From the NCBI GenBank assembly GCA_027600665.1, contig JADGJL010000007.1:1-64000 (forward strand): a stretch of 64,000 bases of DNA, read 5' to 3'. Numbering within the stretch: position 1 is the stretch's first letter; the number at the start of each line of letters is the position of its first letter. The position numbers and the translations under genes were made by a program. The stretch is from Irineochytrium annulatum. Its lineage: Eukaryota > Chytridiomycota > Chytridiomycetes > Chytridiales > Chytridiaceae. Below the pieces are notes generated by a model that was given only the letters and a program-made list of their open reading frames with translations, was not told where the DNA came from and did not search any database. Shown here in pieces: positions 3,753-29,804 of this stretch.

Positions 3753-3785
3753 ATGTCATAAGCGCTTCATAATGTCACGTAACTG
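3753..3785 (-). promoter_or_regulatory. Putative LytTR (AgrA-like) operator of agrBD
   Basis: On the minus strand CAGTTA (3785-3780) is followed after exactly 18 bp by TTATGACAT (3761-3753). The same two words with the same spacing occur before the exporter/NRPS-PKS operon at 28466-28498. The first half-site is GCAGTTACG; the second is GCGCTTATG here. The start codon of agrB lies about 100 bp downstream. Confidence 0.65.
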
Positions 3786-3796
3786 CATGAAAAGAC

Positions 3797-3847
3797 AAAA
3801 CCACCACGATTTCGTAGTCTGTACGACTACTAACCGTGGTGGTTTTT
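3797..3847 (-). terminator. Terminator of the exporter/NRPS-PKS operon
   Basis: Complementary arms AAAACCACCACG (3797-3808) and CGTGGTGGTTTT (3835-3846), plus an inner GTAGT/ACTAC pairing, form a strong hairpin with T-runs on both sides. It lies directly after the phosphopantetheinyl transferase and separates the biosynthetic operon from agrBD. Confidence 0.85.
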
Positions 3848-3859
3848 CTATTTTTTGAT

Positions 3860-4531: not shown

Positions 4532-4542
4532 ACGCATTCACC

Positions 4543-6772: not shown

Positions 6773-6786
6773 ATTCTAACCCCTCC

Positions 6787-7526: not shown

Positions 7527-8744
7527 CTATCCTTCATCAGCATCCATATGAATGACTAAGTTATACACGTTGCCATGCATTGAATACATGGGCATTGTAA
7601 TCCAATGATAGTCATTCACTTGAGTCGTCCATTGATCCGGTTCTATCTTGCCTATATAGGAGTTGGGCTGAGTAACACCACTTCCCTGTAACTCTGTGTT
7701 ATTTTTCTTCGATTCCAGCAAACGACATAATCCTATTAGTCCATAGTATCCAATCATGTATTGAGCATGCTGTTTGAGATATCCTCCCTTTAAACCAGGG
7801 AATACCTTCTGTACATTTTTCAAACAGGAAAACTCAGCAGTATCATCGATCTCATTAGCTCTTCCATACAGGTCCATAAATATCTCATCTGTAGGAAGTA
7901 CCCCGGCATCTGCCAGAGATTGAAGCACCAGTTTTTTAACTGCATTGCGATTAATTACAGGACTTCCCATAGTGCCTGCGGTGATATCTTTAATCTCAGC
8001 AAGAATGTGATCTCCATCTGCAAGGGCTTGCTGCCTTTCTTTAATTAGAAAGGCAACGCCTCCTTCTGAAAAATAGTGCCCCGAAGCACCTTGTTCGAAT
8101 GGTTGAGTGAATCGATCAGAACCAAACCCAAAGTTGGATAACTCATGGGGGAATGGCATCGTACTAGCGCAAGAACCACCGACCAAGGCTGTGTTAAACT
8201 TCCCCTTTTTAACGGCGTTATACCCGCTATATAAAGCCCCTATACCTGAAGTTGATGCTTCGCTTACCATCTGAATTGCTGGCGGCCTGGATAAACGTAG
8301 CATTTTCAGATATGCCAACGGATCAAGTAACTCTATAGCCTTCATGAAATCAACGCCCTGCATTCCCAAATAGGCCGATTTGGATATCAAGTCTGTTTGT
8401 GCACTTCCGTTGGATACCAACACATCGTGCTTCGTTGTCACGACATTCTGATTGATGAGCGACTGAAACAACGATAGTGTGATTCTTTCACTGGAGAGCA
8501 AATATGTTGTTTTTTCCTCATCTATGCCTTCTAAAGCAAATCTTTCTTCAATGGATGGATAGAAAATCCCATCGAATGAGCTAGCTCCGTGGAAATCTTG
8601 ACTAAAGCGCACGCTCAACTGCTCTATTCTATTTTCCCAGAGCTTGTCCTTGCTATGGAGAAGCTGCTTCGCTTGCGAATCATCCTTCGCCGGCATATCC
8701 CAACGGTAGTCTACTATGACGACACGAGAACTGGATTTACTCAT
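7527..8744 (-). CDS. Degenerate ketosynthase-like protein
   Basis: The 405-residue protein keeps the overall ketosynthase/thiolase order: a nucleophile-elbow region (VSEASTSGIGAL), a GEG-like loop (FSEGGVAFLI), a region equal to HGTGT and a late His. The catalytic residues are changed. The nucleophile position holds Ser164 instead of Cys, the HGTGT region reads DLYGRANEID with Tyr instead of His, and only the last His (about 326) remains. It should not condense on its own. It may act like a chain-length factor paired with an active KS, or as a decarboxylating or transfer partner. Its start overlaps the stop of the PKS gene upstream (ATGA), indicating coupled translation. Confidence 0.8.
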   Translation of the reverse strand: MSKSSSRVVIVDYRWDMPAKDDSQAKQLLHSKDKLWENRIEQLSVRFSQDFHGASSFDGIFYPSIEERFALEGIDEEKTTYLLSSERITLSLFQSLINQNVVTTKHDVLVSNGSAQTDLISKSAYLGMQGVDFMKAIELLDPLAYLKMLRLSRPPAIQMVSEASTSGIGALYSGYNAVKKGKFNTALVGGSCASTMPFPHELSNFGFGSDRFTQPFEQGASGHYFSEGGVAFLIKERQQALADGDHILAEIKDITAGTMGSPVINRNAVKKLVLQSLADAGVLPTDEIFMDLYGRANEIDDTAEFSCLKNVQKVFPGLKGGYLKQHAQYMIGYYGLIGLCRLLESKKNNTELQGSGVTQPNSYIGKIEPDQWTTQVNDYHWITMPMYSMHGNVYNLVIHMDADEG

Positions 8745-13234: not shown

Positions 13235-13258
13235 GTTCAATCGCCTCTTTCATGATTA

Positions 13259-16200
13259 TTATTTATTGAGAAATGCCAGCATCTCTGCTGCATCATAATG
13301 ACCATCACTTTGTTCTGTCACTGCCTCCTGGTTGTCCAGCTGATTGATAAGATCAACCTGACCCTGTATCGTTGCAATAGAGAACAATGTTGTTACATCG
13401 AATTGTCCAGGAAACGCTAGATTCAATTCATCACATAAATGTACGATTGTAATAGAGTCCCCTCCTTGTTCAAAGAAACTAACATTATGGTCGTAATCAT
13501 CTTCACCAAGAGTTCTCCCCCATGCAGCAACGATATGATCTTTAACACGATCAGAACCCGTGTATACCTTCTCAGTTTGTTGCTTCCTGTGCATTTTTGT
13601 AACAGGACTGAAGAGAGAAGAATATTCATCTGCTGTACGTTTTAGCTTAAAGAGAGCAGCCGACTTGGCATTCGATTGAATGAACCGATTTAATAATGGA
13701 ATGCCCTCTGCACTGGTTAATTTCTCGAAATAGTAATCTTCCATTCCTGCTGACATACCTACATCCTGCCAACCCGTTAGATTGAGAACTCTTACATTCG
13801 TATTCGTTAAGGGCAAGCCCGATTGATATGCATTAGCCATGGAATACTCCGCTTGTCCCATCGCCCCAATTACACCCGCTAGTGAGGAAAAATGAATGAT
13901 CTCTTGTACTTCAGGGAAATACATTCCCAACAGATGTGAACCTTCTATTTTACTTTTTGTTTTCGCACAAAACTCATTCCTGGACTTGTTAACAAACAAT
14001 CCCTGAGCCGGCTCACCTGCAAAGTTCAAAATATAATCAAGTTTGCCATGATACTGAGCAGCAAAAGAAGAAACTTCATCCTCATTAGATATATCCAACT
14101 TGAGATAACTCACATTATCTCTTGATGGCAGACCATCCCACACGGACCTTCTTCCCGCAGCTATGATATGGATGTCAGCATATCGATCAGCCAAATCTCT
14201 TGTGTATGCCTCACCAATTCCAGAACTGGCCCCAACGATCAGTACAGTCTTACCTTCGGAGAATTTGTCCCGGGATGATTCATCCACTTTCAAACTCTTC
14301 AAACGCAGGATATAGAACTTACCTTCCCGGTGAATAATATGTTGCTCCGACCCATAGTCAACTCGCTCCACATCCGTTGAATATGTATGATCTGTATCCA
14401 CAACAATAACTTCACTATTCACTTCCAGTCTTAAGGCATAGGCACCCATGGCTATGGAACGATTTAACGCATTCATTTTGGGATACTCACTCTTCTTATC
14501 TGTGTATCCTAAAACTCCTGAATTCACGTAATAAAACTTTTTCATATGCAGGATTTTATTTAAACTGATTAGCACTTTTCCAAGGGTATACGTCTCATCC
14601 GCAACACGATCTATCTCTGTGTAATTCCGGTCCCACAGGTATACGTGCTTTAACATATCTTTCTCTTGAAGCCCTATCGCCTTCTCGTTGATTTCTGTCA
14701 GTTCCGTAAAATAGACTATTGGACTATCAAGTTGAAGTTGGGAACGCAAGGATTCATGTACAAAATGGATCGCTTCGGATGGACTGTACGAATGTTGTGT
14801 AAACGTTGCAGGTATAATCTCTTCTTGCTTAAAATATGAACTCGATTCTTCCTTGTTAAGAGCATTTTTCACTTTATAATGATCAGCAGATAGAATAAGA
14901 TTCCACTGTCCATCGAACAAATTAACATTAAGTGATAGGATGATGTTTCCTCGTTCATCCATGGTGCGATCTACTAATTCTATTTCCGAATAGAATTCTT
15001 CTCCTACAAGTTCAAACTGCTCAAAACGGATATCGCTCCAATACCATGGAAACACAATCTGTTCCGGTTCAGCCATTCGGTTTAGAGCATTGAAGGCAGG
15101 ATCGAGAATGGAGGGATAAAAGCTATACATTGAGAATTCCACTTTGTACTCTGAAGGAGGTCTCAGCTTAACTACAGCTCTTGTATGTTCTTGATTAGTC
15201 CATAAACGATCTACTACATCCCATCTTCGGGATACAGCAATATCTTCTACTCCTTCGCCCCCAACTTGGCTTGTTACAGCGACTTCCATAAGTTCTCCTG
15301 CTTTTATTCTCTGATCCAGCCCTGTAGCCGTTCTTCTTATCGGTTTGTGCAATGAAGATTTATCATGTAACTCAAACTGTAGCCAAGTCTTCAACACAAC
15401 AGCAGTCCTATATGTTACAACCACCTTTAAGGTTTTCTTATCCAGTTTGAGTAGAATCGTCAGAGGGCCGTCTTGAACTGCCATCTGATTCATAATGTGA
15501 AGACCAGTGATGTCATAGTGCTCAAGAGTGTACGGTGTACAATCTAACCCCTGGGCTATCATTTCAAAAATACTTGTACCCACAAGCAGATGTTTTCCAT
15601 TGAACTGATGTTCACTAATCTCCCATTGTCTCTTACTGTGTAAAGGAAACTGCACGATAAGCCACTCATCCGTTTCCAAGCGCTGAAGATCATCTTGTAC
15701 TGTGAATGAATTTTCATCTAATGGGAACCAGTAACTCTTTAAATTCAATGGCAATTCCTTAACTTGGGATGGCAACGAACAGCTATATTGTTGAAGAATA
15801 ACGTGAGCATTTGTACCCGTCATGCCGAAGGAACTAATACCTGCAAGCGCATGTTCTTCCAGCGGAACAGATTGATCCGGAATATAGAAAGCTGATGTTT
15901 CAAAATCAATCTCCTCATTGGGAATCTGAAAATCCGGATGAGGTAACACAACGCGGTTACGTAAAGATAAGGCCGACTTAATCAATGAGAACAATCCTGA
16001 TGTTACATCCAGATGTCCGAAATTGGACTTACATGCTGTCAGAGCAATTTTCTGTTTTGTTTTAACACGTTCTGAAAAGTAATTACTCAGGCTCTCAAAT
16101 TCGATCGTGTCTCCGATAGCCGTCCCCGTACCGTGTGCTTCAATAAATGCCAGCTGCTGCATCTCATCCTGAAGGGGAGCCCATGCCTGTTCTATCAGTC

Positions 16201-17032
16201 GTTCTTGCGCATCCGGGTTAGGCGAAGACATATTCATCGTTTGACCATCGTTATTCATGGCGTAGCTGCGGATCAGACCATAGATAAAGTTACCATCCCG
16301 TTCTGCATCCTCCTTCCGTTTGAGAATTACAGAACCTACGCCCTCTCCAATGGATGTACCTGTGCTTCGATCATCAAAGGTACGCGTCCTAGCATCTGTT
16401 GCCAAAATGTCTACCAATTTATCGGACTTGTACCCCGGCTTAACATAAAGATTAGAACTAACGACTATAGCCTGATCAATAATCCCTTGTCTAAGATCAT
16501 TTGACGCTTGAATAATAGATACCAGTGATGATGAACAGGCCGTATCCGTCATTATGGAAGCACCACGTAAGTCATAGATATATTGGATGCGACTTGATAT
16601 GGTCGAGTTTAACATCCCAAGCAGATCCGGTTTCAACTTACGCTGCTGCAACAATAATTGATATTGATATTGCTGTGTGGAGTTCACACTTGCATATACA
16701 CTGGTTTGTGTACCGCGGATCTGCTCAAGACAACCCGCATCATTCAGTGCCCGGGTGGCTGATAACAGGGTCAATCTCTGGTTAGGATCCATAAAATCAG
16801 CACTTTTTTGTGCGATGTTGAAATATTTATGATCAAATTGATCGATATGTTCAAGATATGAACCTGGCATGAATATGTCCTCAACCAGTTCACCAATCTG
16901 TGCATGCCTGTTAGTCGGAAATTTCCCCACAGAAATTCGCTTGTCACGTATTTTATTCCATGCATCATTCATATTCCCACACCCTGGAAGCGTAAGGTCC
17001 ATACCGATAATGGCAATATCTCCTATACTCAA
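13259..17032 (-). CDS. trans-AT PKS module: KS-DH-KR-ACP
   Basis: Domains in order in 1257 residues: KS about 3-415 with Cys166 (TDTACSSS), His300 (HGTGT) and His340 (NFGH); DH about 450-720 with His475 in EHQFNGK and Asp644 in ILDPAFN; KR about 770-1110 with GASSGIG, Tyr1063 and Asn1067; ACP with Ser1193 in GGDSI. There is no AT. The linker between KS and DH is much shorter than in the following PKS. The DH signature lacks the usual Pro (Val in its place), so dehydration may be weak or need a partner. The start is TTG, well placed after GAGAGG; no in-frame ATG is near. Confidence 0.93.
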   Translation of the reverse strand: MSIGDIAIIGMDLTLPGCGNMNDAWNKIRDKRISVGKFPTNRHAQIGELVEDIFMPGSYLEHIDQFDHKYFNIAQKSADFMDPNQRLTLLSATRALNDAGCLEQIRGTQTSVYASVNSTQQYQYQLLLQQRKLKPDLLGMLNSTISSRIQYIYDLRGASIMTDTACSSSLVSIIQASNDLRQGIIDQAIVVSSNLYVKPGYKSDKLVDILATDARTRTFDDRSTGTSIGEGVGSVILKRKEDAERDGNFIYGLIRSYAMNNDGQTMNMSSPNPDAQERLIEQAWAPLQDEMQQLAFIEAHGTGTAIGDTIEFESLSNYFSERVKTKQKIALTACKSNFGHLDVTSGLFSLIKSALSLRNRVVLPHPDFQIPNEEIDFETSAFYIPDQSVPLEEHALAGISSFGMTGTNAHVILQQYSCSLPSQVKELPLNLKSYWFPLDENSFTVQDDLQRLETDEWLIVQFPLHSKRQWEISEHQFNGKHLLVGTSIFEMIAQGLDCTPYTLEHYDITGLHIMNQMAVQDGPLTILLKLDKKTLKVVVTYRTAVVLKTWLQFELHDKSSLHKPIRRTATGLDQRIKAGELMEVAVTSQVGGEGVEDIAVSRRWDVVDRLWTNQEHTRAVVKLRPPSEYKVEFSMYSFYPSILDPAFNALNRMAEPEQIVFPWYWSDIRFEQFELVGEEFYSEIELVDRTMDERGNIILSLNVNLFDGQWNLILSADHYKVKNALNKEESSSYFKQEEIIPATFTQHSYSPSEAIHFVHESLRSQLQLDSPIVYFTELTEINEKAIGLQEKDMLKHVYLWDRNYTEIDRVADETYTLGKVLISLNKILHMKKFYYVNSGVLGYTDKKSEYPKMNALNRSIAMGAYALRLEVNSEVIVVDTDHTYSTDVERVDYGSEQHIIHREGKFYILRLKSLKVDESSRDKFSEGKTVLIVGASSGIGEAYTRDLADRYADIHIIAAGRRSVWDGLPSRDNVSYLKLDISNEDEVSSFAAQYHGKLDYILNFAGEPAQGLFVNKSRNEFCAKTKSKIEGSHLLGMYFPEVQEIIHFSSLAGVIGAMGQAEYSMANAYQSGLPLTNTNVRVLNLTGWQDVGMSAGMEDYYFEKLTSAEGIPLLNRFIQSNAKSAALFKLKRTADEYSSLFSPVTKMHRKQQTEKVYTGSDRVKDHIVAAWGRTLGEDDYDHNVSFFEQGGDSITIVHLCDELNLAFPGQFDVTTLFSIATIQGQVDLINQLDNQEAVTEQSDGHYDAAEMLAFLNK

Positions 17033-17068: not shown

Positions 17069-18229
17069 TTATCCCGCTTTCCAGGCTAATTTGTTACGAT
17101 AATGCATGATTTGTTCCTCTGGAACTTTTTTGGTCCGAAGAATGAGCTCCAACAAGGATAACGTTTTTTCTACATCCTCAGCCGTTGCCTCTTTTCCAAT
17201 CTGTGATTTGATCTGGTTATATCCACTAATCACAATATTTTCATATGCTTCCGAATCTTCATTATTATTTTTGGTCGAGACAATAATCCCTAGTGCTCGC
17301 GAAAAGACACTGTAGTGTTTATTGACTTCGATGTCGTCTTTCAGTTCATTACTAAGCTTTGAGAGTTGCTCTTCGTTGTGGAGGGCGTGCACTTGGACCT
17401 GATTTCCAAGCATTTTGACAAACATTCCGTTCGGGGATAAATCAATGAATACTTGAATGCCCTGCTTCACTGCATAATCTACAGACTGTGTCCAACAGAC
17501 GGGATTTACCATCTGACTGGATATCCCCTTCTGAACATTAGAAGGCTGATACGGTCTTGCGAATTCGTTGCTAATGACTTCAGTACTCCAATATGGGTTA
17601 AACGAGAAACTGTTCAACTGATTGTAAACTTCGTCTGCCGCTGCCTGCATGTAATGAGTATGAAAAGCGCCACTGACTCCTAAAGGAACAGACTCTACCT
17701 TGTTTTGTTTGACGAAGTCCTGCAGATCAGTCTTCTTACCCGCAATGACCGTTTGCTTAGAAGAATTATAATTGGCTATATAGATATCTTGTCTATCGCT
17801 CAACCACGATTCAACCTTCTCCGGTGAAGCAAACACAGCTGTCATACCCGTACTTTCTTGTGTATCAATTGCTTTTTTCATGGCAGTTCCTCGCACATCT
17901 ACCAGTTTTAATCCCTCACTATAGCTTAGAGCACCTGCAATGGTTAGTGCTGTAATCTCACCCAGGCTGTGTCCAAGAACTATGCTAGGATATAAACCCA
18001 CATGTTCCCGGTACAATTGATACATGCACATGGACCCTACATAGGTTGCCAATTGTGCTTTTCGTGTGTCTTGGCTTAGATCAGAACAGAACCACTCTCT
18101 GATCGGCTCCTGCAACTGTGTCTCTGCTTGCTCAATCCATTTTAGTGTTTGTTTATTTTTCAGCCATGCTTCCTTTACTTCCTCGCTAATTTTAGTTCCT
18201 TGTCCTGCCAACATTAATGCAATTTTCAT
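17069..18229 (-). CDS. trans-acting malonyl-CoA acyltransferase
   Basis: A stand-alone FabD-type acyltransferase of 386 residues with AGQGT near the start, active-site Ser88 in GHSLGE and His190 in GAFH, a combination typical of malonyl-specific enzymes. It would load malonyl groups on the ACPs of both AT-less KS-DH-KR-ACP proteins. It carries an extra C-terminal part of about 80 residues beyond the AT fold whose role I cannot assign. ATG follows AAGGAGG. Confidence 0.92.
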   Translation of the reverse strand: MKIALMLAGQGTKISEEVKEAWLKNKQTLKWIEQAETQLQEPIREWFCSDLSQDTRKAQLATYVGSMCMYQLYREHVGLYPSIVLGHSLGEITALTIAGALSYSEGLKLVDVRGTAMKKAIDTQESTGMTAVFASPEKVESWLSDRQDIYIANYNSSKQTVIAGKKTDLQDFVKQNKVESVPLGVSGAFHTHYMQAAADEVYNQLNSFSFNPYWSTEVISNEFARPYQPSNVQKGISSQMVNPVCWTQSVDYAVKQGIQVFIDLSPNGMFVKMLGNQVQVHALHNEEQLSKLSNELKDDIEVNKHYSVFSRALGIIVSTKNNNEDSEAYENIVISGYNQIKSQIGKEATAEDVEKTLSLLELILRTKKVPEEQIMHYRNKLAWKAG

Positions 18230-18244
18230 ATCGAGTTATCCTCC

Positions 18245-19720
18245 TTATAATCGTTCAAGAATTTTATGTGTCAGCATTTCGGAAGTATAGTGATTAAAGA
18301 AATCACTTATTTTTAGATTCACTTTGAATTGTTCTCGTATTCTTTTTTTGAACTTTACCAAGAGTGTCGAATCCATACCGAGATCAAAAAAGCTCTCTTC
18401 TGCATGTACAGTCTGTTCATTCAGCAATGTGCATACCATCCCGGATACCTCTTTGTATATAACTTCATAGTTATCTTCTCTTAAGATAACGTTTGGAGAA
18501 GCGTTATCTCCATCTGTCTTAGTTTCATCTTTCAAACGTAACATTTGATCCAGCCCTATTTCCGTATCAGCGTATAATGCATGGACATTACGACTAAAAA
18601 TAGATAACAGTTGTTCCATGTCTTCCGAACTATATTCGCTGGATATCATTGTTATATGAAGTTCATTCAGTTGTTTATATATCGAGAAGTGAAGACCATA
18701 TTTTTCATCGCGATATGTCTCGATTTCATGGAGTGTTATTGCATGCTCATGACTAAGCGTAGTCTCGATCAGACTTCCTGATTTGTAGTCAAATATGATA
18801 TCCCGAAAAATGTTCATACATTTCATGGACTCCCGATATCTCACAGCATCATAATGGCTGCTCGTTGTCAGATCCTTGAATATCTGTTGTTGAACTTCTG
18901 CAGTGAGTTGCTCCACGCTTGAATAATTCTGTGTATCAAACCTCTTATGAAAAGGAACTAACTGAACAAAGTTTCCAAGTGCTCTAAAATTGGTCTGATT
19001 TCTACCCAGATACGGATAAGCCAGATACACGGAGTTATGGTTCAGCCAGCCGGCTACACTGATTGCAAAAGCAGTCAGACATAGAGAGAAATCCGTGTAT
19101 TTGTGTTTGACCATACTCCCCAGTTTCACAGTTTCACTTCGATAGTTCACATGCTCAATCTGTTTGTTGAGCAACCGAGATTTAAATCCTTCATATTCTC
19201 CAAAATCAACTGTATTACGCTGTGAGTTAATATTAGAATCCGTATGTTCTTCCACCGAACTGCATTGGAAGGCCAATGGCTCATCCGAGAGATATGCTGC
19301 AATTACATCTTGCAAAAAAAGATTAATACTTAAGCCATCAAGTAATGCATGATGTACATTAACAAAAAGGTAATCATTGGTTTCATCAGCCACCTTACAT
19401 AATACAATTTTGACTAACTCTTTATCTTCCACCGATATCAAGTGAGCATCGAGCATTGCTTGAGGTTCAAACTTAGACTGTGAGCAAATTTCAATTGTAG
19501 GTACTTCTGCCGTGATCCATCTCTCAATGTCAGAAGCAATTCGATAGGAAGTCCGGAAAATATCAAATTGTTCAAAGTATAATGTAAGCAGATTATACAT
19601 TTTGGCAACATTGAGCCCTTCCCCAAACTTCACAATCATGGGAATATTGTAAGCCGTAGGATTCAGTAAACTGCTATTAATAATTCTTTTTTCACTATCA
19701 CTAGCCGGCTTTGACATCAT
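18245..19720 (-). CDS. NRPS C-PCP didomain
   Basis: A condensation domain with an intact HHALLDG motif (His123, His124, Asp128) is followed by a carrier domain with Ser451 in DLGMDS. There is no adenylation domain between them, so the PCP must be loaded in trans, by one of the two A proteins or through an acyl transfer. The start (ATG ATG after GGAGAG) overlaps the stop of the upstream A-PCP gene by 20 bp. Position between the NRPS genes and the PKS genes suggests it hands a peptidyl or aminoacyl group to the PKS part. Confidence 0.9.
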   Translation of the reverse strand: MMSKPASDSEKRIINSSLLNPTAYNIPMIVKFGEGLNVAKMYNLLTLYFEQFDIFRTSYRIASDIERWITAEVPTIEICSQSKFEPQAMLDAHLISVEDKELVKIVLCKVADETNDYLFVNVHHALLDGLSINLFLQDVIAAYLSDEPLAFQCSSVEEHTDSNINSQRNTVDFGEYEGFKSRLLNKQIEHVNYRSETVKLGSMVKHKYTDFSLCLTAFAISVAGWLNHNSVYLAYPYLGRNQTNFRALGNFVQLVPFHKRFDTQNYSSVEQLTAEVQQQIFKDLTTSSHYDAVRYRESMKCMNIFRDIIFDYKSGSLIETTLSHEHAITLHEIETYRDEKYGLHFSIYKQLNELHITMISSEYSSEDMEQLLSIFSRNVHALYADTEIGLDQMLRLKDETKTDGDNASPNVILREDNYEVIYKEVSGMVCTLLNEQTVHAEESFFDLGMDSTLLVKFKKRIREQFKVNLKISDFFNHYTSEMLTHKILERL

Positions 19721-21308
19721 TCACAATCTCTCCTAAGGTGCGTGTAAATAGCATATCCAGATCTATCGGATAACCCTCTCCTCCTAATTTCCAGATGACT
19801 TCCATTGCTTTAATAGAGTCACCACCCAGCTCCAAAAAAGTCTTACTCATGATTAGCTCACTTTGGAGTACACTTGTCATTACTTCTGCAACCTTGTTTA
19901 CACTATTGGACTCCTGATCTTTATGTCGGTTCATTGCTTGCATGTCTGTTTTACCATTGTTATTCATCGGGATTTTTCCCACCACCTTAACTGTTGGTAT
20001 CATATAATCTGGCAGTATATTGCGAAGATGCTGACGGAATGGTTCGAGTTCGATCATATCCGTTACAAACAGGTACAGCCGTGTACCATCGTAATGAGCC
20101 AAACACTCTTTATTTAGGCCATAGTTGTATGCACAACGTTCAATCTCGCCAAGTTCAATCCGATATCCAGAGACTTTAACCTGCCGATCTGCTCGCTCGA
20201 CATAGTTCAATTCCCCTCCAGCACTCTCATAAACAACATCGCCTGTCCGATAATAGCGTTGCCCCTCCCAGTACGCAAACGCCTTTTGGTTCGCTTGATC
20301 GTTGTCGATGTAACCTCTCATCAAACCTGAGTCAGATAACAATAATTGTCCTTGTTCTCCACGGTTAACCGGTATGCCACTTTCATCCAGGATGAGAGAA
20401 TTTCCCTGGTCAAACATCTTCCCAATCGGAATCTCTGTTTCATCCCCAATTACCTTATATCGGGTGGCAAAGACTGTAGTCTCCGTTGGGCCATACACAT
20501 TGTACACATTGCAATATTGCGCCGCTTCATGCAGATGTTTGATGGAAGCACGTTCACCCCCCGTTAAGATGAGTTGCAACTTGCTCAAGTCCTCCACACA
20601 TTCTTCAACATATAGATTAAACAATCGTGTTGTCAGAAATACCGTATCGATCTCTTCCAAAATCTCTGGGAGGATATCAAAGTCTAGACTATCATCCTTA
20701 CTTACCATTCTAAGTGTCATCCCATTCAGCAATCCGCCAAAAATTTCGTAGACGGATGCATCGAATTCAAGAGGAGCAAATTGACCAATTACATTGCCTT
20801 CGTAGAATTCATTTTGTCTCACAATTTTTTCAATAGATCGATCTTCAATAGCTACAGCCTTAGGCTCGCCAGTTGATCCAGAAGTGAAGATAATGTATAA
20901 AAGACTGTTAGCTTGGCGAGAAGCTTGCTGTACCCCCAATACGTCTTGTACCACATTTTGAACGGCACACTCTTGCTTCTCTATTTCATTAAGACTACGA
21001 AGTACGACTTTGCCATTCACTTTAGTACGCATTTTATTTTTGCGATGATTCGGATAGTCTTGTGGAATGACGCAATATGCAGCCCCCGCTCGGACAACTC
21101 CAAGCATGAGAATGATCGCCTCCAACTTATCCTCCGCCTCAATAGTTACCACATCTTCATTGGCTATTTTTTGCCACATTAAATGTTCTGCTACCCTGGC
21201 TGTCAGTATATCCAATTGACCATACGTCAGCGTCTTTGAGGAATCCTTAATCGCAATTTTCTCCTTATGCGTATTGAAACTCCACTCTAATTTTTCTAAT
21301 ACATTCAA
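19701..21308 (-). CDS. NRPS A-PCP didomain
   Basis: An adenylation domain (about 1-440) has FTSGSTGEPKA, FDASVYEIFGG, YGPTETTVFATRY, YRTGD, ERADRQVKVSGYRIELGEIE and NNNGKTD with the catalytic Lys. A carrier domain follows with Ser in LGGDSI. The specificity code I read against GrsA is D-A-Y-T-I-T-V-V-F-K. Asp at the first place indicates an alpha-amino acid; the rest suggests a hydrophobic or aromatic side chain, without a firm match. The start codon is TTG, seven bases after AAAGGGGG. It has no C domain and must work with the stand-alone C proteins next to it. Confidence 0.92.
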   Translation of the reverse strand: MNVLEKLEWSFNTHKEKIAIKDSSKTLTYGQLDILTARVAEHLMWQKIANEDVVTIEAEDKLEAIILMLGVVRAGAAYCVIPQDYPNHRKNKMRTKVNGKVVLRSLNEIEKQECAVQNVVQDVLGVQQASRQANSLLYIIFTSGSTGEPKAVAIEDRSIEKIVRQNEFYEGNVIGQFAPLEFDASVYEIFGGLLNGMTLRMVSKDDSLDFDILPEILEEIDTVFLTTRLFNLYVEECVEDLSKLQLILTGGERASIKHLHEAAQYCNVYNVYGPTETTVFATRYKVIGDETEIPIGKMFDQGNSLILDESGIPVNRGEQGQLLLSDSGLMRGYIDNDQANQKAFAYWEGQRYYRTGDVVYESAGGELNYVERADRQVKVSGYRIELGEIERCAYNYGLNKECLAHYDGTRLYLFVTDMIELEPFRQHLRNILPDYMIPTVKVVGKIPMNNNGKTDMQAMNRHKDQESNSVNKVAEVMTSVLQSELIMSKTFLELGGDSIKAMEVIWKLGGEGYPIDLDMLFTRTLGEIVNDVKAG

Positions 21309-21322
21309 CAGAAATCCCCCTT

Positions 21323-22462
21323 TCAGACAAGACAGTTTTTCAGCGTTGTATCCATTAGATCTAACATAAATCGAATTTGCTCTTCACTGTATTGGCTTGG
21401 ATTATATTCAATTTCGATCTGTGCGTTACCATTCACTAGAAAAACACGGATGTATAGTTCAAATTTGTTTAAGTTATCCGCAGGAATATATTGAAAGTAT
21501 CTGAACATATCTTCTTCATAGGAATAGACAACTGGATGATCCATGTTACATCGTGTTGGTGGTTCCATGCTCCGCTCTGCAAACGCACTGAGATTATCCA
21601 AAGAGATCTGTTTGATCGTTGCTAAAATGTCGCGTCCCCTAACAATTCTTCGGGACTGCATCTGTACAAAACAACCAATCTCATGAAATGCTCCCATACT
21701 CATACGCCAATTACCTATAGTTCCATACACGCTGCCTGTGCAAGTCTGTTCTAATACCGATTCCCATAATCCTTGAAAAACTGAATTTCTGGTTACTTTC
21801 AACAAGGTTGAAATTTTCTCAATATGTTGAAATTGTTCAGGTTTCAATTGTTTTATTAGACGTTCCAAATGACCTTTTTTAGTTGTTACATGCATATTTT
21901 GTCCAGATAGCCTTAAGAATTCTTCCTTAGTAAAAGAAGACTTGTTGGTTTGTAACTCATTAATTCGTTGGTAAAAACCAAAGTCGCTATCTGGTGAATT
22001 CCGAGATCGCCCTGCAAGGTGATCCATAAACATAGATTCAAAGTTTCGAATTCCCCATCCGTCAATACAGATATGGTGAAATTCAATTAGTAAATACATC
22101 TTTTGTTTGTACTCTGCGAATTGAGTTCTCCAGGGATATTCTTTGGTAAGATCGATCATTTCTTTCCTTTGCTTCAAATAAATTTCGGGATGTTCATCTA
22201 AATAGATCTGCGGAATTTCAAATTGATGTGGATCCAGGCGGTGATAAACTTGATTAAACATTCGGTGCTCCGCATCATAGGTATACCGGGTCTGTAAGGT
22301 TTGACACTCCTGTATTGTTATTAAAAGAGCAGTGCAGACCTCCTTAAGACTAACAGGTTCTGGAATTTCATAGATGAATGGCAAACGATACACAGGCAAT
22401 TGATTGCAGATAAACATTTTTCGTTGTATATATGTCAGTTCGCTAGATTGAAGAAGGTCCAT
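21323..22462 (-). CDS. Stand-alone NRPS condensation domain
   Basis: A single condensation-fold protein of 379 residues with intact HHICIDG motif (about 128-134). It has no carrier or adenylation part. Its start overlaps the end of the C-carrier-C gene by 20 bp and the next gene (A-PCP) follows after 14 bp. It may build the first amide or ester bond, for example N-acylation of the residue activated by the following A-PCP, or do a release step. Confidence 0.87.
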   Translation of the reverse strand: MDLLQSSELTYIQRKMFICNQLPVYRLPFIYEIPEPVSLKEVCTALLITIQECQTLQTRYTYDAEHRMFNQVYHRLDPHQFEIPQIYLDEHPEIYLKQRKEMIDLTKEYPWRTQFAEYKQKMYLLIEFHHICIDGWGIRNFESMFMDHLAGRSRNSPDSDFGFYQRINELQTNKSSFTKEEFLRLSGQNMHVTTKKGHLERLIKQLKPEQFQHIEKISTLLKVTRNSVFQGLWESVLEQTCTGSVYGTIGNWRMSMGAFHEIGCFVQMQSRRIVRGRDILATIKQISLDNLSAFAERSMEPPTRCNMDHPVVYSYEEDMFRYFQYIPADNLNKFELYIRVFLVNGNAQIEIEYNPSQYSEEQIRFMLDLMDTTLKNCLV

Positions 22463-25124
22463 CTGATGTTACCCCTCCTTCAATATCCATAGGAATTATC
22501 TGAAACTCCCTCAAAGCTCGCTCAAAAGTAACCATTATCCGTCTTTCTTCTTCTGAGTCATATACGTTACTATCGATATACACACTCAGTTGGGAATTTG
22601 AAAAACCTCTACGCAGCTGAACGAAAATTTGAAACTTGGATAATCCATCAAATTCAATCGTTTCATCAAATATAGATGAATCCTCAGGCTCTTCCCCTTC
22701 TTGCAGTGTTTGAAAAACAACACGAGGATAGGAGAGATTAAATCCATGTTCATTCAAATCCATTAAAGATACCGTTTGGTTCATTCTTGCAATATAAAGG
22801 CTGTTCTTCAGAATATCCGAATTCGTAGTAGAGAAGAACAAAGGTAAGACTCTGGCAAATGAACCAATGACCTGACTGGTTCGTGCTATAACACGCCCAT
22901 GATAGACAGCACCAATATATCCCTCTTCGTAATCAAAATACCTGGATAATGAATAATGGACTACGTTTAGTATCCTTAATTCTGTCTCTTCGAAATTCGG
23001 TATGCCTATATCCAGGTTCCAGTGATATGGATGAAAGTATCCACTACCAAGAGAAGATTTACCCGGATTGTGGAATTGTTTGTACGGAAGAAGACTTTCC
23101 CATTGCTTGAGGGCTATAGAGGTAGCATGACTGTACTCCTCTGCCAATGAAGCATATTGCGAATATACAGGTTTATGATTGTTATAACACTCTGTTATCT
23201 GATCTTTTAGGATTTGAATACCCATATGATCAATAAGTATATGATGAATATTGAAGTACAGATACATATCTCCTGTAGAATTCAAATGAACAAGTTTGAA
23301 GTCCCATAATTGTGAGTGAGGATGTATACGAAGTGTTTCTTGATCTCGCTGTAGATCGCTTAAATCTCCTACATCCACCCATTCAATATGTACCTGCTGC
23401 TGAGGCATTACTGAAGCTATAAACTGGCCATCCTGCATTTCAAATGAAGTGAAAAAAATATCATTTCCTTGAATAACCTGTTCAATAGCTTCCTTAACCC
23501 TTTCCATATGGCTGGCTGCCTGAGACGTTAGACGTAAAGCATAACTTACATTGTACATATCCGTATTTATGAAACGAAAACTATCAATAAAGATTGTTTT
23601 CAAAAAGCCAGGAAGATGATAATGATTAGGGTTAGTCGATTCTGGTCCATCCTCCCGTTCTGAAATGGACTTTTTACTGAGTTTTTGTTTCAATTCTTTA
23701 ATTGTAGAAGAAGTATAAATATCATGGTAAGACAATTGAACGTCATAGTACTCGTAGGCATCTGTAATGATCTGAGCAATCTCGAAAGAGGTGATATCCG
23801 TATCCAGTAGATGATCTTCTTCGTTATATCGCTCAAACAAAAGTTGGAGTGTAGAACTCCGCTGAGCTTTATCAGCACTAATAGTGGCGCTGTTTTTTGG
23901 CTCAACTTCACCTTTTTTGATACTTACTTCCTGCCCACTCATACTTAACTGCTCATCGAGATTAATACTATTCAATTCAAGTACCATCTCTCCCAAACAA
24001 TCACATACGCCCTTTACTAAGGTGTTATCGTAACGAAACTCCATATACAGACCGTCTTCATATTCATTGAATTGGGTATGGTTATCATATTTGTACAAAT
24101 AATCTCCCAAAACAAAGGTTGAGAACACTTCAGAATGGGCAATTGGATCTGACATTCGTGTATAAGAGACGACCAAGTCAAAACCCTTCACGCCAATAAG
24201 ATTCATATATTCCTCATAAGTTAATGCACTTGAAGATTCAATAGCCACAAAAAAATTCTTGAACAGAGCTTTGGCGTTATCCTTGTAACTAAGCTGTTCT
24301 GACAGTTGGAATGAATACGGAACAACATCTGTATAATTACCAATCTGATTTTGTTCTGTCTGATGATTCCGCCGTGATATAACTATCCCGAAACGGGATT
24401 GCCTACGCTCCGTTGCAAGAGCTATTGCATATAATATGACACCAAATTTGGTAATCCGGAGCTTTTGTGCCAATGATCCTATGGCTTCCCACACTTGTGA
24501 TGACAATTTGACTTTTCCATAAACGGGATCTTCCAATGGCTCATGAGCAGAGAAATGGGATATGGACTTAAAGGATTCGAAATAGTCATGGAGCATCGAT
24601 GAATCTTTTTTTCGAATTGTTAGGGACCTCTCTGGCATATCGTACAGACCAGCAGGAACAGAGAACTCACCATGAAGCACTGAATATTCCAATGCGGTCA
24701 TGAACTCGTTCATCGAATCGCCATCAAACACCAGATGATGGATAAGAAATTCAATTCTGCACTCCGCTTCATCTATATAGTATTTTGCCAACCCTTCTCC
24801 CTCAAAAACATCCAGTTTGACATCCTGAAGAGAAATATGACTTCTAAATGAATTAGGCGTGTTTAGCCTTGAACAAAAAGCATATTGGGACTCCTTCTGT
24901 ACAATGGTTAATCCTAAAGCTTTATGGCCTTCCATTACTCGTTCAATAGCATCAGCTATATTACAAGCCGCCCACTTAGAATCATATTTCACGGTGAAGA
25001 ATATATCGTAGTTCTTACGATGTTTCTCGGCATACAGAATTTTTTCGTGTAGAGATGATAGATTGGATAATTCGATGGTTTGCGCAACCTGAATGGTCAA
25101 GATAATCCGTCCTCCGATCTCCAT
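22443..25124 (-). CDS. NRPS C-(carrier)-C protein
   Basis: Two condensation-fold domains flank a small helical domain. The first (about 10-400) has an intact HHLVFDG. The middle part (about 420-490) is the size of a PCP and reads TDITSFEIA where LGxDSxxx is expected: the Ser may be kept but the preceding Asp is Thr and the Gly is lost. The second C domain (about 510-880) has HHILIDH, with His in place of the final Gly. It is the first biosynthetic gene after the exporter. The start is uncertain: ATG at 25124 has a weak ribosome site, and GGAGG lies 10 bases before an in-frame TTG at 25100. Confidence 0.85.
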   Translation of the reverse strand: MEIGGRIILTIQVAQTIELSNLSSLHEKILYAEKHRKNYDIFFTVKYDSKWAACNIADAIERVMEGHKALGLTIVQKESQYAFCSRLNTPNSFRSHISLQDVKLDVFEGEGLAKYYIDEAECRIEFLIHHLVFDGDSMNEFMTALEYSVLHGEFSVPAGLYDMPERSLTIRKKDSSMLHDYFESFKSISHFSAHEPLEDPVYGKVKLSSQVWEAIGSLAQKLRITKFGVILYAIALATERRQSRFGIVISRRNHQTEQNQIGNYTDVVPYSFQLSEQLSYKDNAKALFKNFFVAIESSSALTYEEYMNLIGVKGFDLVVSYTRMSDPIAHSEVFSTFVLGDYLYKYDNHTQFNEYEDGLYMEFRYDNTLVKGVCDCLGEMVLELNSINLDEQLSMSGQEVSIKKGEVEPKNSATISADKAQRSSTLQLLFERYNEEDHLLDTDITSFEIAQIITDAYEYYDVQLSYHDIYTSSTIKELKQKLSKKSISEREDGPESTNPNHYHLPGFLKTIFIDSFRFINTDMYNVSYALRLTSQAASHMERVKEAIEQVIQGNDIFFTSFEMQDGQFIASVMPQQQVHIEWVDVGDLSDLQRDQETLRIHPHSQLWDFKLVHLNSTGDMYLYFNIHHILIDHMGIQILKDQITECYNNHKPVYSQYASLAEEYSHATSIALKQWESLLPYKQFHNPGKSSLGSGYFHPYHWNLDIGIPNFEETELRILNVVHYSLSRYFDYEEGYIGAVYHGRVIARTSQVIGSFARVLPLFFSTTNSDILKNSLYIARMNQTVSLMDLNEHGFNLSYPRVVFQTLQEGEEPEDSSIFDETIEFDGLSKFQIFVQLRRGFSNSQLSVYIDSNVYDSEEERRIMVTFERALREFQIIPMDIEGGVTSDGPSSI

Positions 25125-25204: not shown

Positions 25205-26311
25205 TTAAATATCTTCCGTTCTCACTCTTGTCAGTAGTACAAAAATAATCGCAGCACAGACGAACAAACTGATAATATGCACTGTAATCATGCTACTGTT
25301 ACCTGTAAACCCACTGAACATCTCATTGTTCAACTCTGTAATCCAATGGGTAGGCAATACACTTGCAATCTTTTGCATACCTTCAGGCATAATTGAACTT
25401 GGCCAGAGTGTTCCGCCTAACATCGCCAGAGGAAGTGATACTACGGTAATAAGCAACCGCCCGGTAGACATTTTGGTTGTACGACTTACAAGCAGTAACC
25501 CAATACCTGCCGCAATCATATTGAGTAATCCATACGCCAACACGAGCAATAGAAGTTCTCCGAACGATAAAGACAGATCAATTTGGAAAACTCCGGTCAT
25601 CAGAGCAATCATAAGTATAAATTGTCCTACACCGATAACTGCAAACACACTTACGGTCTGCACATAGTAGCTCAATTTACTGCTCGCTGCCAGTAATAAA
25701 CGCTGGGTCGTGGTATGCACCTTATCACCAAGGAATAACAGTGTATTGGTCATTGTAAGGAACATAATGATAAACACAATCATATTGAATGAACTCGTTA
25801 ATACCACCGCATTAGGGTTTCCAAGAATCTTCTGTTCCACTTGTATTGGAGCTTTGGTTGCTGCAGCTTCTTTCATACCTGCGGTTAATGATTCTTCACT
25901 GGTGGCATTTTTGGCCAATGTTTTTAAAACAGAGAATACACTATTCAGTTTAATCTCCAACGAGTTTGAATTGAAATTCTGCTCATTCACGTAACTATTC
26001 ACCTTGAGCAGATCCGGATCATTAAATATGTCCTGAGTGCTTGAAGGGAATACAATTCCCAGATTGGTACTATGATGAATAGCATCATCTGCCGAAGCTG
26101 CTTGAGTAATGGTGACATTCTGCTTCTTCAGCATATCCGTGATATAAGAATTCACAGCTGAATCTTCTACATACATCGTAAGTGTGACCTTGGTTGCTTC
26201 CTCATATTGCGCTACTACAGAATACGTAAATACAACTGGCAACAACAAGATTAAGATAAAGGTAAGTTTTCGCTTGAAAATACGTCTTAAATACAGTTCG
26301 AATACCCGCAT
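25205..26311 (-). CDS. ABC-2 type transporter permease
   Basis: This 368-residue permease has one N-terminal helix, a large extracytoplasmic region (about 30-175) and a block of about five C-terminal helices, the ABC2_membrane_3 layout. An upstream ATG at 26350 is in frame, but the ATG at 26311 has a strong AAAGGAGG nine bases before it and starts right after the stop of the previous gene. With its paralogue and the ATPase it forms an exporter at the head of the biosynthetic operon, probably for the product or for self-resistance. Confidence 0.9.
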   Translation of the reverse strand: MRVFELYLRRIFKRKLTFILILLLPVVFTYSVVAQYEEATKVTLTMYVEDSAVNSYITDMLKKQNVTITQAASADDAIHHSTNLGIVFPSSTQDIFNDPDLLKVNSYVNEQNFNSNSLEIKLNSVFSVLKTLAKNATSEESLTAGMKEAAATKAPIQVEQKILGNPNAVVLTSSFNMIVFIIMFLTMTNTLLFLGDKVHTTTQRLLLAASSKLSYYVQTVSVFAVIGVGQFILMIALMTGVFQIDLSLSFGELLLLVLAYGLLNMIAAGIGLLLVSRTTKMSTGRLLITVVSLPLAMLGGTLWPSSIMPEGMQKIASVLPTHWITELNNEMFSGFTGNSSMITVHIISLFVCAAIIFVLLTRVRTEDI

Positions 26312-26312
26312 C

Positions 26313-27467
26313 TTATCGTGCCTCCTTTCTTGTGAGGGAGTATACTGCAATTAGAACAAAACCCATTGCAGCAATAAGGGCAGTAAATACAGGCATCAAA
26401 TCAATTACGCCTTGCCCAATATAATCGAACATTGGACGTTGGAACACTTCATTGATGCTTATGGAACTGAGCTCACCCATATCAAGTTTAACGAATCCGC
26501 CACCCACAAATGTCATAACCGGAATCAACAATGTCACTACACCATCCACTTGTTTGATTCGGCGTCCAATAACCCCCAAGAGCAAACCTAGAGCGTTAAA
26601 GAAAATTGAACCTGCGATAATGATGAAGAATACAAACATCATGTTGTCTCCATAGCTGACGTTGAAGAAGAGTTTTGCACAGAATACAATGACTGCGCCT
26701 TGAAGAATAGATATCGTACACCCTGTTAGAAACTGCCCCATAATTAATGCTGTTTTGGAAATTGGACTAACCAGATAACGATCTCCTAATGCTTCACTGT
26801 ACTCTTCCTGTACAAAGTTCATGGTATTAGCCAAACCATATACAAGAATCAGAACTAACATAGTCACGCCATAATAGCTCATCGCTGAAATATTGGAACC
26901 ACTCTCCGTGGAAGCCTCTGTTGCAGTTCCCGGAGCAACCAACATGTTACTATACTCATGTGAATATACGATATTCGGATTGCCCGCACTCGCAACTTCC
27001 ATTGCCAGGTAGCCATCACCATAGGCTGATAGGGCCAGGTCTGTAATATTAACTTTCTCAATATTATTATCCTTACCATACACCGTGATGTTACCGTTCT
27101 TATTTTTCTCATACTCACTTGTTAGATCTTTAGGCAGATATATATACTGTTCTACCTCTCCAGACTCCAACATCTTGAGCGCTTGTGTGCTACTAGAGCC
27201 TACCTTGACATTAAACATCTCTTTGTTGTCTTCACTACTAAGGAATGAAACAATATTTTTCCCAACATCTCCACTATCTTCATTGACCACAACTGTTGAA
27301 ATCTGAGATATGATAGTGGACTTTGTTTCCTTATCTCCTGTCTGAAACACACCAGACAATGCATTCCCCAGAATCATAATCAAAAGAAGCGGTAACAGGA
27401 TGTAATTGACAAATACGACAGGGTTCTGAAGCTTACGCTTCATACTCGTTGCAAATATCGTCCACAT
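26313..27467 (-). CDS. ABC-2 type transporter permease
   Basis: This 384-residue permease is a paralogue of the next gene: one N-terminal membrane helix, a soluble outside domain (about 40-185) and five to six C-terminal helices. It starts 4 bp after the ATPase stop and ends at the ribosome-binding site of the second permease. The two permeases probably form a heterodimer on a dimer of the ATPase. Confidence 0.9.
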   Translation of the reverse strand: MWTIFATSMKRKLQNPVVFVNYILLPLLLIMILGNALSGVFQTGDKETKSTIISQISTVVVNEDSGDVGKNIVSFLSSEDNKEMFNVKVGSSSTQALKMLESGEVEQYIYLPKDLTSEYEKNKNGNITVYGKDNNIEKVNITDLALSAYGDGYLAMEVASAGNPNIVYSHEYSNMLVAPGTATEASTESGSNISAMSYYGVTMLVLILVYGLANTMNFVQEEYSEALGDRYLVSPISKTALIMGQFLTGCTISILQGAVIVFCAKLFFNVSYGDNMMFVFFIIIAGSIFFNALGLLLGVIGRRIKQVDGVVTLLIPVMTFVGGGFVKLDMGELSSISINEVFQRPMFDYIGQGVIDLMPVFTALIAAMGFVLIAVYSLTRKEAR

Positions 27468-27471
27468 AGAT

Positions 27472-28389
27472 CTAATCCCTCAGATTCTTTCTTGTTAATT
27501 TGAAAAACACTTGTTCCAGATTAGGGGTAATATATTGAAAGCTTTTCACATCTTCGCCAAAAGAATCTTTGATCTGACTTATTGCATTCACGTCATTTTT
27601 AGGGACTCCCAACTCGACATTGTTGCCTTCTGCCAGTAATACAACATAATCCTCAAGCTGCTTGGTGTACGCCGTACTTTTACGTTGTAGCTCCAAACGG
27701 ATGATAGCCTGGTCTGTATGTTCCTGAATTACATCATTGAGCTTACCTTGGCAGAGCAATTGTCCATCATCGATAATTCCGACATGAGAGCAAATTCGTT
27801 CAACTTCCTCCATGTAGTGAGAAATATAGATAACGGTTGTTCCAAGTTGATTCAACTCTATAATGGCATCCAAAATTCGATTACGGGATTGTGGATCAAC
27901 ACCCACTGTTGGCTCATCCAGTATGATGACATCCGGGTTGTGGACAATACCACAAGCAATATTGAGTCTTCTTTTCATGCCACCCGAGAATTTTTTAGGT
28001 TTTTGTTTGCGTTCTTCCCACAGTCCAACAAATTCAAGGGCGAAACGAACCTGTTTCTTCAAACGCTCTCCCTTTAATCCGTACAGTTTACCGAAAAACA
28101 ATACATTCTCATAAGCAGATAGGTCATAAATCAAGGCCAAATCCTGTGGAACATAACCTACTCGTTTGTTTGTGCTTGCATTGAGATGTTCGTTAAACCA
28201 CTGAATTTTACCATTTTGAGGTTTATCCAGCCCAAGCATAACTCTGGTTAAAGTAGATTTCCCTGCCCCATTGGGACCAAGTAAGCCGTAAATCTGACGA
28301 TCTCCAACCGATAAGGATAATTGTTTTAGTACTGGTTTCTTTTTGTTATAACTGAATTGAATATTCTCTCCAGTAAATACCGTTTGCAT
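27472..28389 (-). CDS. ABC transporter ATP-binding protein
   Basis: A single nucleotide-binding domain with Walker A GPNGAGKST, signature FSGGMKRR, Walker B VIILDEP and the H-loop YISHYMEE, plus a C-terminal extension of about 80 residues as in drug and antibiotic exporters of the ABC-2 class (DrrA/BcrA type). It is the first gene of the operon, with AGGAGG before the ATG. Control of its promoter therefore sets expression of the whole biosynthetic pathway. Confidence 0.95.
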   Translation of the reverse strand: MQTVFTGENIQFSYNKKKPVLKQLSLSVGDRQIYGLLGPNGAGKSTLTRVMLGLDKPQNGKIQWFNEHLNASTNKRVGYVPQDLALIYDLSAYENVLFFGKLYGLKGERLKKQVRFALEFVGLWEERKQKPKKFSGGMKRRLNIACGIVHNPDVIILDEPTVGVDPQSRNRILDAIIELNQLGTTVIYISHYMEEVERICSHVGIIDDGQLLCQGKLNDVIQEHTDQAIIRLELQRKSTAYTKQLEDYVVLLAEGNNVELGVPKNDVNAISQIKDSFGEDVKSFQYITPNLEQVFFKLTRKNLRD

Positions 28390-28405: not shown

Positions 28406-28441
28406 GATTTGTTGTGCCTTTTATGTAAACTTAGTGTAGCA
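28406..28441 (-). promoter_or_regulatory. Candidate core promoter of the exporter/NRPS-PKS operon
   Basis: About 10 bp downstream of the LytTR-like operator, a weak TTTAAG and a TACACT separated by about 16 bp can be read on the minus strand. The poor -35 box would fit an activator-dependent promoter. Other choices (for example TACATA nearer the gene) cannot be excluded. Confidence 0.3.
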
Positions 28442-28465: not shown

Positions 28466-28498
28466 ATGTCATAACAGGCACGTATGAAGTAATAACTG
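28466..28498 (-). promoter_or_regulatory. Putative LytTR (AgrA-like) operator of the biosynthetic operon
   Basis: On the minus strand CAGTTA (28498-28493), exactly 18 bp, and TTATGACAT (28474-28466) repeat the arrangement found before agrB. Read as half-sites they are ACAGTTATT and CCTGTTATG; their GTT cores are 21 bp apart, two helical turns. The ATG of the ATPase is about 77 bp downstream. Confidence 0.65.
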
Positions 28499-28571
28499 TA
28501 CTTTCTGAAACAGATTTTGGCTTCGTAACCGTTAAAACATGACCTCTGATTATTAGGCTCAATAACAAAAA

Positions 28572-28643: not shown

Positions 28644-29804
28644 TTAGGCTGTAACCGTTGCGACTGTGGGTTGGGCAGACTTGTTCTTTTGCATGCCAAC
28701 TCGCAGCAGCGTAATCCCCCACGTTATAACCGCGATCAACAGAAGATGAATCATGTATCCACCTACGGCTTCTCCACTATAGATCAAACGCATAAATCCC
28801 TGTACCCCATTGGAGGCGGGCAGAAAGTTTCCAATATGACGATAGAATGGCGCCAGCATCTCGGCTGGAATGATATTTCCTGCAGTCATCAACTGGAGCG
28901 GAACCATCGCCACATTAAATAGAGGGCCTGCATTGCCAAACAGGGCAAAACTCATTTGTGTGAAACAGATACAAGCCAGACTCACCAGCACATGATACAG
29001 ATACAACGCGCCGAAGGAGCTCGCCACATCCGTGAACTGAAGAGCGACTGTATCCACAATCAGAGGAACGATCACAGCTATACACAATAACAGCAATTGC
29101 CGTCCCCAGAAGATTTCCCATTTGGAGTGATTACGCTTCATGATATTCGACGTGATATTGAACTGAATGTTCATGGTCATCGCAGCAATGTAGGTGATAA
29201 AACCCAGAATCATAGGCAGCATCGATGTAGCAAAATCACTGACACTGTTCGTTTTATTAATTTCAGCCTTCACAGGCCCTTCATTCATCTTCGCCATCGC
29301 TTGTCCAATAGCTGAACTCAGTTCATCGCTGTTTATACTATCGTTATTAAGTGTCACTTGAACCTTGGATTCCAGAATCCCTTGACCCATTTGTGCAGTC
29401 ATTCCGGTCGCCGCATGTTCCACAATGGATTTGGCTACATCGGCATTTCCCTGATTGATATAAAAGGACAAACTCGCGTCTGTACCGCCTGCAATCTGGT
29501 CAGTGAATCCTTCCGGAATAACAATAACCATCGCATAGTTACCCGCATTCATCTGTTTCTCGGCTTCCTGTGAAGAATTCAGAACATTGACATGGAAAGG
29601 CGCGAGCGTTTCAATCTGCTTCTGCGCCTCTGTTCCCTGTGTCCCGTCTTCGTTCACCAAAGCAACTTGAAGTTGATCTACTCTCTCCGTGGCTTGATGA
29701 TAACCCGTCATCCAGATCACAACAAATAACAGCGGAACAATCAATGCAAATACCAACCCTATTTTTGTCTGTGGCACTTTAAGAAAATCTTTGAAGCTTT
29801 TCAT
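28644..29804 (-). CDS. YhgE/ABC-2-like membrane permease
   Basis: The 386-residue protein has one N-terminal helix, a large extracytoplasmic region (about 40-200) and about five C-terminal helices ending in a polar tail. No ATPase is encoded beside it, as is common for YhgE/Pip and SNG1-like proteins, whose transport role is poorly known. The MarR gene lies just upstream in the same direction, so it is probably a MarR-controlled efflux or stress function. Similarity in shape to the two ABC-2 permeases across the terminator is notable, but it has its own control region. Confidence 0.8.
   Translation of the reverse strand: MKSFKDFLKVPQTKIGLVFALIVPLLFVVIWMTGYHQATERVDQLQVALVNEDGTQGTEAQKQIETLAPFHVNVLNSSQEAEKQMNAGNYAMVIVIPEGFTDQIAGGTDASLSFYINQGNADVAKSIVEHAATGMTAQMGQGILESKVQVTLNNDSINSDELSSAIGQAMAKMNEGPVKAEINKTNSVSDFATSMLPMILGFITYIAAMTMNIQFNITSNIMKRNHSKWEIFWGRQLLLLCIAVIVPLIVDTVALQFTDVASSFGALYLYHVLVSLACICFTQMSFALFGNAGPLFNVAMVPLQLMTAGNIIPAEMLAPFYRHIGNFLPASNGVQGFMRLIYSGEAVGGYMIHLLLIAVITWGITLLRVGMQKNKSAQPTVATVTA

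Follow-up and report, generated by a model that had tools for sequence, protein, structure and literature searches.

The window, by which we mean the whole 64,000-nucleotide stretch of DNA that we analyzed, contains a set of agr-type genes and an exporter/NRPS-PKS operon, all on the minus strand. The operon is a run of genes from 28389 to 3860 (24.5 kb) with no intergenic gap of over 80 bp. The main features are:

27472–28389, minus strand: ABC exporter ATPase, the first gene of the operon
25205–27467, minus strand: two ABC-2 permeases
17069–25124, minus strand: NRPS/AT part, with two condensation-domain proteins, A-T, C-T, and a stand-alone AT
7527–17032, minus strand: PKS part, with two KS-KR-ACP proteins and a KS-like protein
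3860–7512, minus strand: thioesterase, A-T, orf5, and phosphopantetheinyl transferase, the end of the operon
3788–3850, minus strand: strong terminator-like hairpin (−32.8 kcal/mol, z −8.4), after the biosynthetic operon and before the agr promoter
3000–3653, minus strand: agrB (PF04647, E = 9.2e-33), starting at GTG 3653 or ATA 3644
2870–3037, minus strand: agrD, 55 amino acids (TIGR04223, 27.2 bits against a cut-off of 19)
1308–2663, minus strand: agrC, sensor histidine kinase (HATPase_c_5)
549–1283, minus strand: agrA, response regulator with receiver and LytTR domains (aligns to S. aureus AgrA, 3bs1)

DH is clear in the KS-KR-ACP protein at 8741–13240 and weak in the one at 13259–17032. 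Orf5 has no matches in Pfam or NCBIfam. Another ABC-2 permease gene (28644–29804) lies just upstream of the exporter operator on the same strand, in the window and in the relatives G182, G131, and G134; it is not clearly a member of the operon. The window's contig looks like it is from a Paenibacillus contaminant or associate inside a eukaryote assembly. (The assembly, which was treated as intron-bearing, contains one AgrB. By eye, positions 1–20 of the window read as the 5' end of a 16S rRNA gene.)

The four agr genes have the makings of an agr system: an AgrB peptidase, an AgrD with a conserved cysteine (one Cys is conserved in all 20 loci), and an adjacent AgrC-type kinase and AgrA-type LytTR regulator. 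By analogy, the predicted signal ring of AgrD is CSLFN. The regulator at 549–1283 had been described as AgrA-like, and we agree: it matches the DNA-binding domain of S. aureus AgrA (3bs1) with E = 6.2e-27, and it has kept the DNA-contact residues. H169, N201, and R233, which we take to be the DNA contacts, are conserved along with C199 and C228 in 19 of 19 readable close loci; this count leaves out G352 (its agrA is outside the fetched stretch) and two distant AgrA-like proteins that are not in register. The C199/C228 pair is named in PMC4227749. AgrA and AgrC score below the NCBIfam cut-offs for the quorum-sensing AgrA (262.9 of 400 bits) and the staphylococcal AgrC (301.8 of 500 bits), so these are agr-type proteins rather than members of those equivalogs. 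A scan of Rfam at gathering thresholds, which was the only search for an RNAIII-like gene, gave no match.

In agrB, a ribosome-binding site, GAGGTGATC, lies ahead of the codon at 3644, which is ATG in most relatives and TTG in G242, and is ATA here. Since G182, G131, and G134 have the ATA as well, a sequencing error can be dismissed. Translation may begin at this ATA, as a rare start codon that restricts AgrB, or at GTG 3653.

A preliminary description of this DNA had reported the motif CAGTTA-N18-TTATGACAT at both 28498–28466 and 3785–3753 on the minus strand. We confirmed both copies, and the window has no third match; none turned up in 100 shuffles. The agrB-side copy is just past the hairpin and ahead of agrB, agrD, agrC, and agrA. 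A search of the whole assembly, which had been proposed as a check, also found only the two copies at these promoters (26.9 Mb, 1082 contigs). The distances to the start codons, given as 77 bp on the exporter side and 100 bp on the agrB side, agree with the coordinates, the latter if agrB starts at GTG 3653. To put a rate on the similarity of the two 220-bp upstream regions in the window, we used dinucleotide shuffles of one region against the other: 6 of 1,000 equaled the observed similarity (15 matched bases in at most two exact blocks). So, the match within the window is by itself only moderately unlikely, which is suggestive but not decisive, and this rate is the point in favor of a chance likeness or of a functionless recent duplication of one promoter. 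We consider the conservation of the putative shared site among relatives to be the decisive support for it.

To find relatives, AgrB was scanned for in genome contigs, which yielded P. camelliae and P. montaniterrae, and their AgrBs were the profile for a family search. Against 394 Paenibacillaceae genomes (a set that does not include P. montaniterrae), the profile gave 22 at E ≤ 1e-25, of which 18 were at E ≤ 1e-60. The comparison of the larger locus leaves out the weak AgrB matches in G154 and G157 and a second copy in G271. Two candidates with distant AgrB, G381 and G376, had no cluster genes in the fetched stretch and are not part of the operator counts. In 15 of the 18 genomes, agr has the biosynthetic cluster immediately upstream (with only its last part on the contig in G297, and without orf5 in G232), and orf5, which marks the cluster, occurs in 15 of the 394 genomes, all of which carry this agr. 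The window and G182 are nearly the same, with a DNA identity of at least 99% in the eight genes compared. In G042, the cluster is on the opposite side of agr and convergent. In G267 (L053), most of the NRPS/PKS genes between the exporter and agr are gone, and both operators and agr are in place. P. camelliae (L003 7169–9863) and P. montaniterrae (L004 4806–7707) have open frames for agrB, agrD, agrC, and agrA next to a shrunken cluster of exporter ATPase, truncated permease, and one condensation-like gene; their fetched stretches have no PKS match.

Across the 394 Paenibacillaceae genomes, the exact motif occurs 13 times in 10 genomes, and every copy is before agrB or before the exporter/NRPS-PKS operon. 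A reversed-pattern control had 3 exact matches in these genomes. Many copies at unrelated sites would have counted against the idea of an operator, but there is no exact copy away from the two promoters in this set. If one mismatch is allowed, then the 18 genomes have 28 matches, 17 at the two promoters and 11 elsewhere (4 of them intergenic), versus 23 for the control. At this stringency, 14 of 18 genomes have the motif at one or both promoters, G242 and G232 have no match anywhere, and G042 and P. camelliae have it only off the two promoters. Among these rejected candidates, the best intergenic one (17.3 bits, in P. camelliae) lies in an apparent hairpin near a periplasmic-binding-protein-domain gene. 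In G182, allowing up to two mismatches gave 12 matches versus 14 for the control, and of the 12 only the two exact copies fall at the agrB and exporter promoters. We rejected 9 of the 10 others as extra targets (best 18.2 and 17.3 bits) because they lie inside open frames of at least 60 amino acids, and the tenth is intergenic with 7.3 bits. True operators are sometimes within short spurious frames, so an in-frame location is not proof against further targets. Overall, no further target was visible at the stringency searched (up to two mismatches in G182 and up to one in the 18 genomes), and weaker sites are possible.

The earlier expectation that relatives would conserve the motif was borne out in essence, though not literally. 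More distant relatives too have a pair of half-sites in a 21-bp register at both promoters, but before agrB the literal string is exact only in the window, G182, G131, and G134. Because relatives diverge from the string before agrB yet retain the 21-bp pair, we rejected the 15-base motif, taken literally, as the operator. The underlying element is, as judged from these alignments, a tandem pair of 9-bp half-sites of the AgrA/LytTR type:

28466–28499, minus strand: predicted AgrA-type operator of the exporter/NRPS-PKS operon, a half-site pair and then ACAT
28499–28491 and 28478–28470, minus strand: exporter-side half-sites ACAGTTATT and CCTGTTATG, 21 bp apart
3753–3786, minus strand: predicted AgrA-type operator upstream of agrB, a half-site pair
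3786–3778 and 3765–3757, minus strand: agrB-side half-sites GCAGTTACG and GCGCTTATG, 21 bp apart

The preliminary description had placed GTT cores 21 bp apart. The register holds at both sites, but the GTT core is absent from the second half-site before agrB (GCGCTTATG), which has 6 of 9 matches. Pairs of half-sites that resemble ACAGTTATG, at a 21-bp spacing (that is, with a 12-bp gap), can be placed in 19 exporter promoters and 20 agrB promoters, and GACA usually follows the second half-site. (G297 is not among the 19 because its agr contig lacks the exporter gene; its exporter-side site, followed by the ATPase, is on a separate contig.) Before agrB, what we placed was the best 21-bp pair available, which to some extent guarantees that one is present there. 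The pair before agrB is poor in P. montaniterrae (10/18), and the second exporter-side half-site has drifted in both P. camelliae and P. montaniterrae.

We also scanned for pairs at various spacings with what we take to be the S. aureus-type AgrA half-site. Before agrB, a spacing of 21 bp scored highest, at 13.15 versus 10.2–11.55 for other spacings. Before the exporter, 21 bp (12.16) and 30 bp (12.11) were about equal, with 9.8–11.0 for the remaining spacings; if averaged by clade, the scores were 12.06 for 21 bp versus 12.13 for 30 bp. Random 220-bp stretches from the same loci scored 9.8 (standard deviation 0.95) for the S. aureus-type pair. In G042 and G352, the top such pair before the exporter is not the operator, whose position was taken from the alignment.

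We trained a weight matrix without the clade being tested, with the loci grouped by similarity into seven clades. In 16 of 19 loci, no other match outranked the two promoters; the agrB site came third in G247 and G301, and in G232 the sites came second and fourth. The agrB pair ranked first or second in its own locus in 18 of 20 loci. In the window, the two sites score 32.0 and 25.3 bits, and the next-best match, at 36295, scores 15.2 bits. This third candidate is within a coding gene (which reads as MFS-like), and we attribute it to coding conservation. Taken together, these comparisons indicate that the operator common to both promoters is genuine and conserved and that, at the stringency of our searches, it does not extend beyond these two.

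The exporter operator is also at a fixed place relative to a predicted promoter:

28433–28438, minus strand: predicted −10 box TACACT with extended TGC, 61 bp from the start of the operator

An extended −10 (TGCTAnAnT) precedes the exporter in 19 of 19 loci. The operator start is 60–61 bp from it in all 19, while the distance from the −10 to the ATG varies from 41 to 108 bp. If the first base of the −10 is counted as −12, and assuming that this −10 sets the start, then the pair is centered at about −58, close to the center of about −60 reported for AgrA repeats in S. aureus. The constant distance to the −10, the conservation of the element over seven groups of loci whose flanks diverge, and the lack of exact copies elsewhere in the 394 genomes all argue against a chance likeness or a functionless duplication, and we give that explanation almost no credence.

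Before agrB, the geometry is different:

3667–3672, minus strand: predicted agrB −10 box TATAAT, placed from the alignment
3725–3733, minus strand: position of a third half-site, 61 bp upstream of the agrB −10, with 6 of 9 matches in the window

A TAnnAT box, placed from the alignment, precedes the ribosome-binding site of agrB in 20 of 20 loci. The strong pair is 112–114 bp upstream of this predicted −10 in 18 of them, and the 60–61 bp seen at the biosynthetic promoter recurs only in P. camelliae and P. montaniterrae. Because of this, direct activation is less secure at agrB than at the biosynthetic operon, and the distal placement is where the case for feedback is weakest. AgrA might instead activate only the biosynthetic operon, with the distal agrB site used for fine tuning, repression, or DNA looping, and with agr feedback that is weak or that arises from degenerate proximal half-sites. 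The distal spacing would fit with this. So would the third half-site at −61, which is kept on average across clades, even if P. camelliae and P. montaniterrae are left out; no good partner is found 21 bp beyond it. However, the high rank of the agrB pair under the leave-one-clade-out matrix and the 60–61-bp geometry in P. camelliae and P. montaniterrae speak against another role for the distal site, and we think this account is unlikely. AgrA feedback at agrB is likely.

We also considered that the shared sites might be recognized by a regulator other than the linked AgrA, as two more LytTR matches are present on other contigs of this mixed assembly. But the half-site, the 21-bp period, and the position at the promoter suit AgrA, and the sites, agrA, and the cluster are inherited together, so another regulator seems very improbable.

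We propose, with considerable confidence, that both sites are AgrA operators and that a dedicated agr circuit drives the exporter/NRPS-PKS operon and its own agrBDCA. AgrB and AgrD would produce a cyclic peptide signal, which AgrC would sense at high density, leading to phosphorylation of AgrA. AgrA would then bind the tandem 9-bp half-sites with their 21-bp period and would turn on the exporter/NRPS-PKS operon from its extended −10 promoter, which has a poor −35. AgrA would also act at agrBDCA as positive feedback. What the sequences show directly is the genes, the sites and their spacing, their conservation and (at the stringency searched) restriction to the two promoters, and the joint inheritance of sites, agrA, and cluster. 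That the linked AgrA binds the sites, that it activates and does not repress, that cell density matters, and that a product is formed are our inferences. On the sequence evidence, AgrA control of the biosynthetic operon is by far the best explanation. Because the detectable targets of AgrA are these two promoters only, the circuit appears to be dedicated to one natural product. And because, in this group of Paenibacillus, the same control site precedes both the agr genes and the product genes, the product is probably made only if enough cells are signaling.

The proposed circuit resembles the agr P2/P3 system of S. aureus in its AgrB, AgrD, AgrC, and AgrA genes and in a LytTR-type AgrA with the same contact residues (whose roles we presume). 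In both systems, 9-bp direct repeats are separated by a 12-bp gap, with a center at about −58 at the biosynthetic promoter here and about −60 in S. aureus; the portion of PMC4227749 that gives this center also describes the −35/−10 spacing there as non-optimal. Unlike in S. aureus, the target here is an adjacent NRPS-PKS operon, and the main pair before agrB is distal. LytTR repeats are mostly 12 bp apart and just upstream of the −35, according to the part of PMC6193735 that we rely on. The same part describes HdrRM and BrsRM of S. mutans, which similarly have such repeats before their own promoters and those of antimicrobials, with positive feedback. However, those systems comprise a regulator and a membrane inhibitor, not agrBDC, and their targets are ribosomal bacteriocins. 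In relatives of P. polymyxa, antiSMASH regions join "cyclic lactone autoinducer" and NRPS-like genes (in the excerpts of PMC10938842 and PMC11000672 that we cite, one of which also places an autoinducer beside the paenibacillin lanthipeptide cluster). These resemble our locus in that agr-type genes neighbor NRPS-like genes. The likeness is of gene neighborhood alone: the operator and regulatory link are described here and not in those excerpts. In the open-access literature, we found no published link of agr to NRPS/PKS control and no Paenibacillus agr system so linked.

If our proposal is correct, then the right cyclic peptide, or an active AgrA, should elicit the product of an uncharacterized NRPS-PKS family. 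It would also add a megasynthase operon to what AgrA controls directly, in a circuit with very few, dedicated targets.

The signal itself varies among the relatives. The AgrD rings, whose limits are set by analogy, include CSLFN, CGFLL, CMTFF, CSLLF, CLFWS, and others. Between the window and G131, the DNA of PKS1 is 91% identical and AgrA is 97% identical as protein. The first 150 residues of AgrC are 21–25% identical versus 85–93% for the rest. (This test excludes G134, in which apparent frameshifts break up AgrC.) In G297 (L048), four cluster genes are 93–98% identical to those of G247/G213 and 80–85% to those of G303/G285, and agrA has the same pattern (96% versus 87%). Its agrD and AgrC-sensor DNA, in contrast, is 95–96% identical to that of G303 (92–96% to G285) versus 83–89% to G247/G213. 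By these identities, the specificity cassette has either been exchanged or persisted as an ancient polymorphism, while the cluster was inherited vertically. More tentatively, and with slightly more doubt than belief, we suggest that this is a private, cluster-bound agr: the NRPS-PKS cluster, AgrA, and the operators would remain in place, and species would replace or swap agrD and the sensor half of AgrC. With such swapping over a constant product, strains that make the same compound would be split into mutually deaf groups. Swapping of the specificity cassette over a conserved cluster would offer a system for asking whether signal groups evolve to limit the sharing of a costly compound. We also noticed that G042 and G352 (among L043, L044, and L042) each have two matches to agrC, and that in G242 an adenylation-domain gene separates agrD from agrC.
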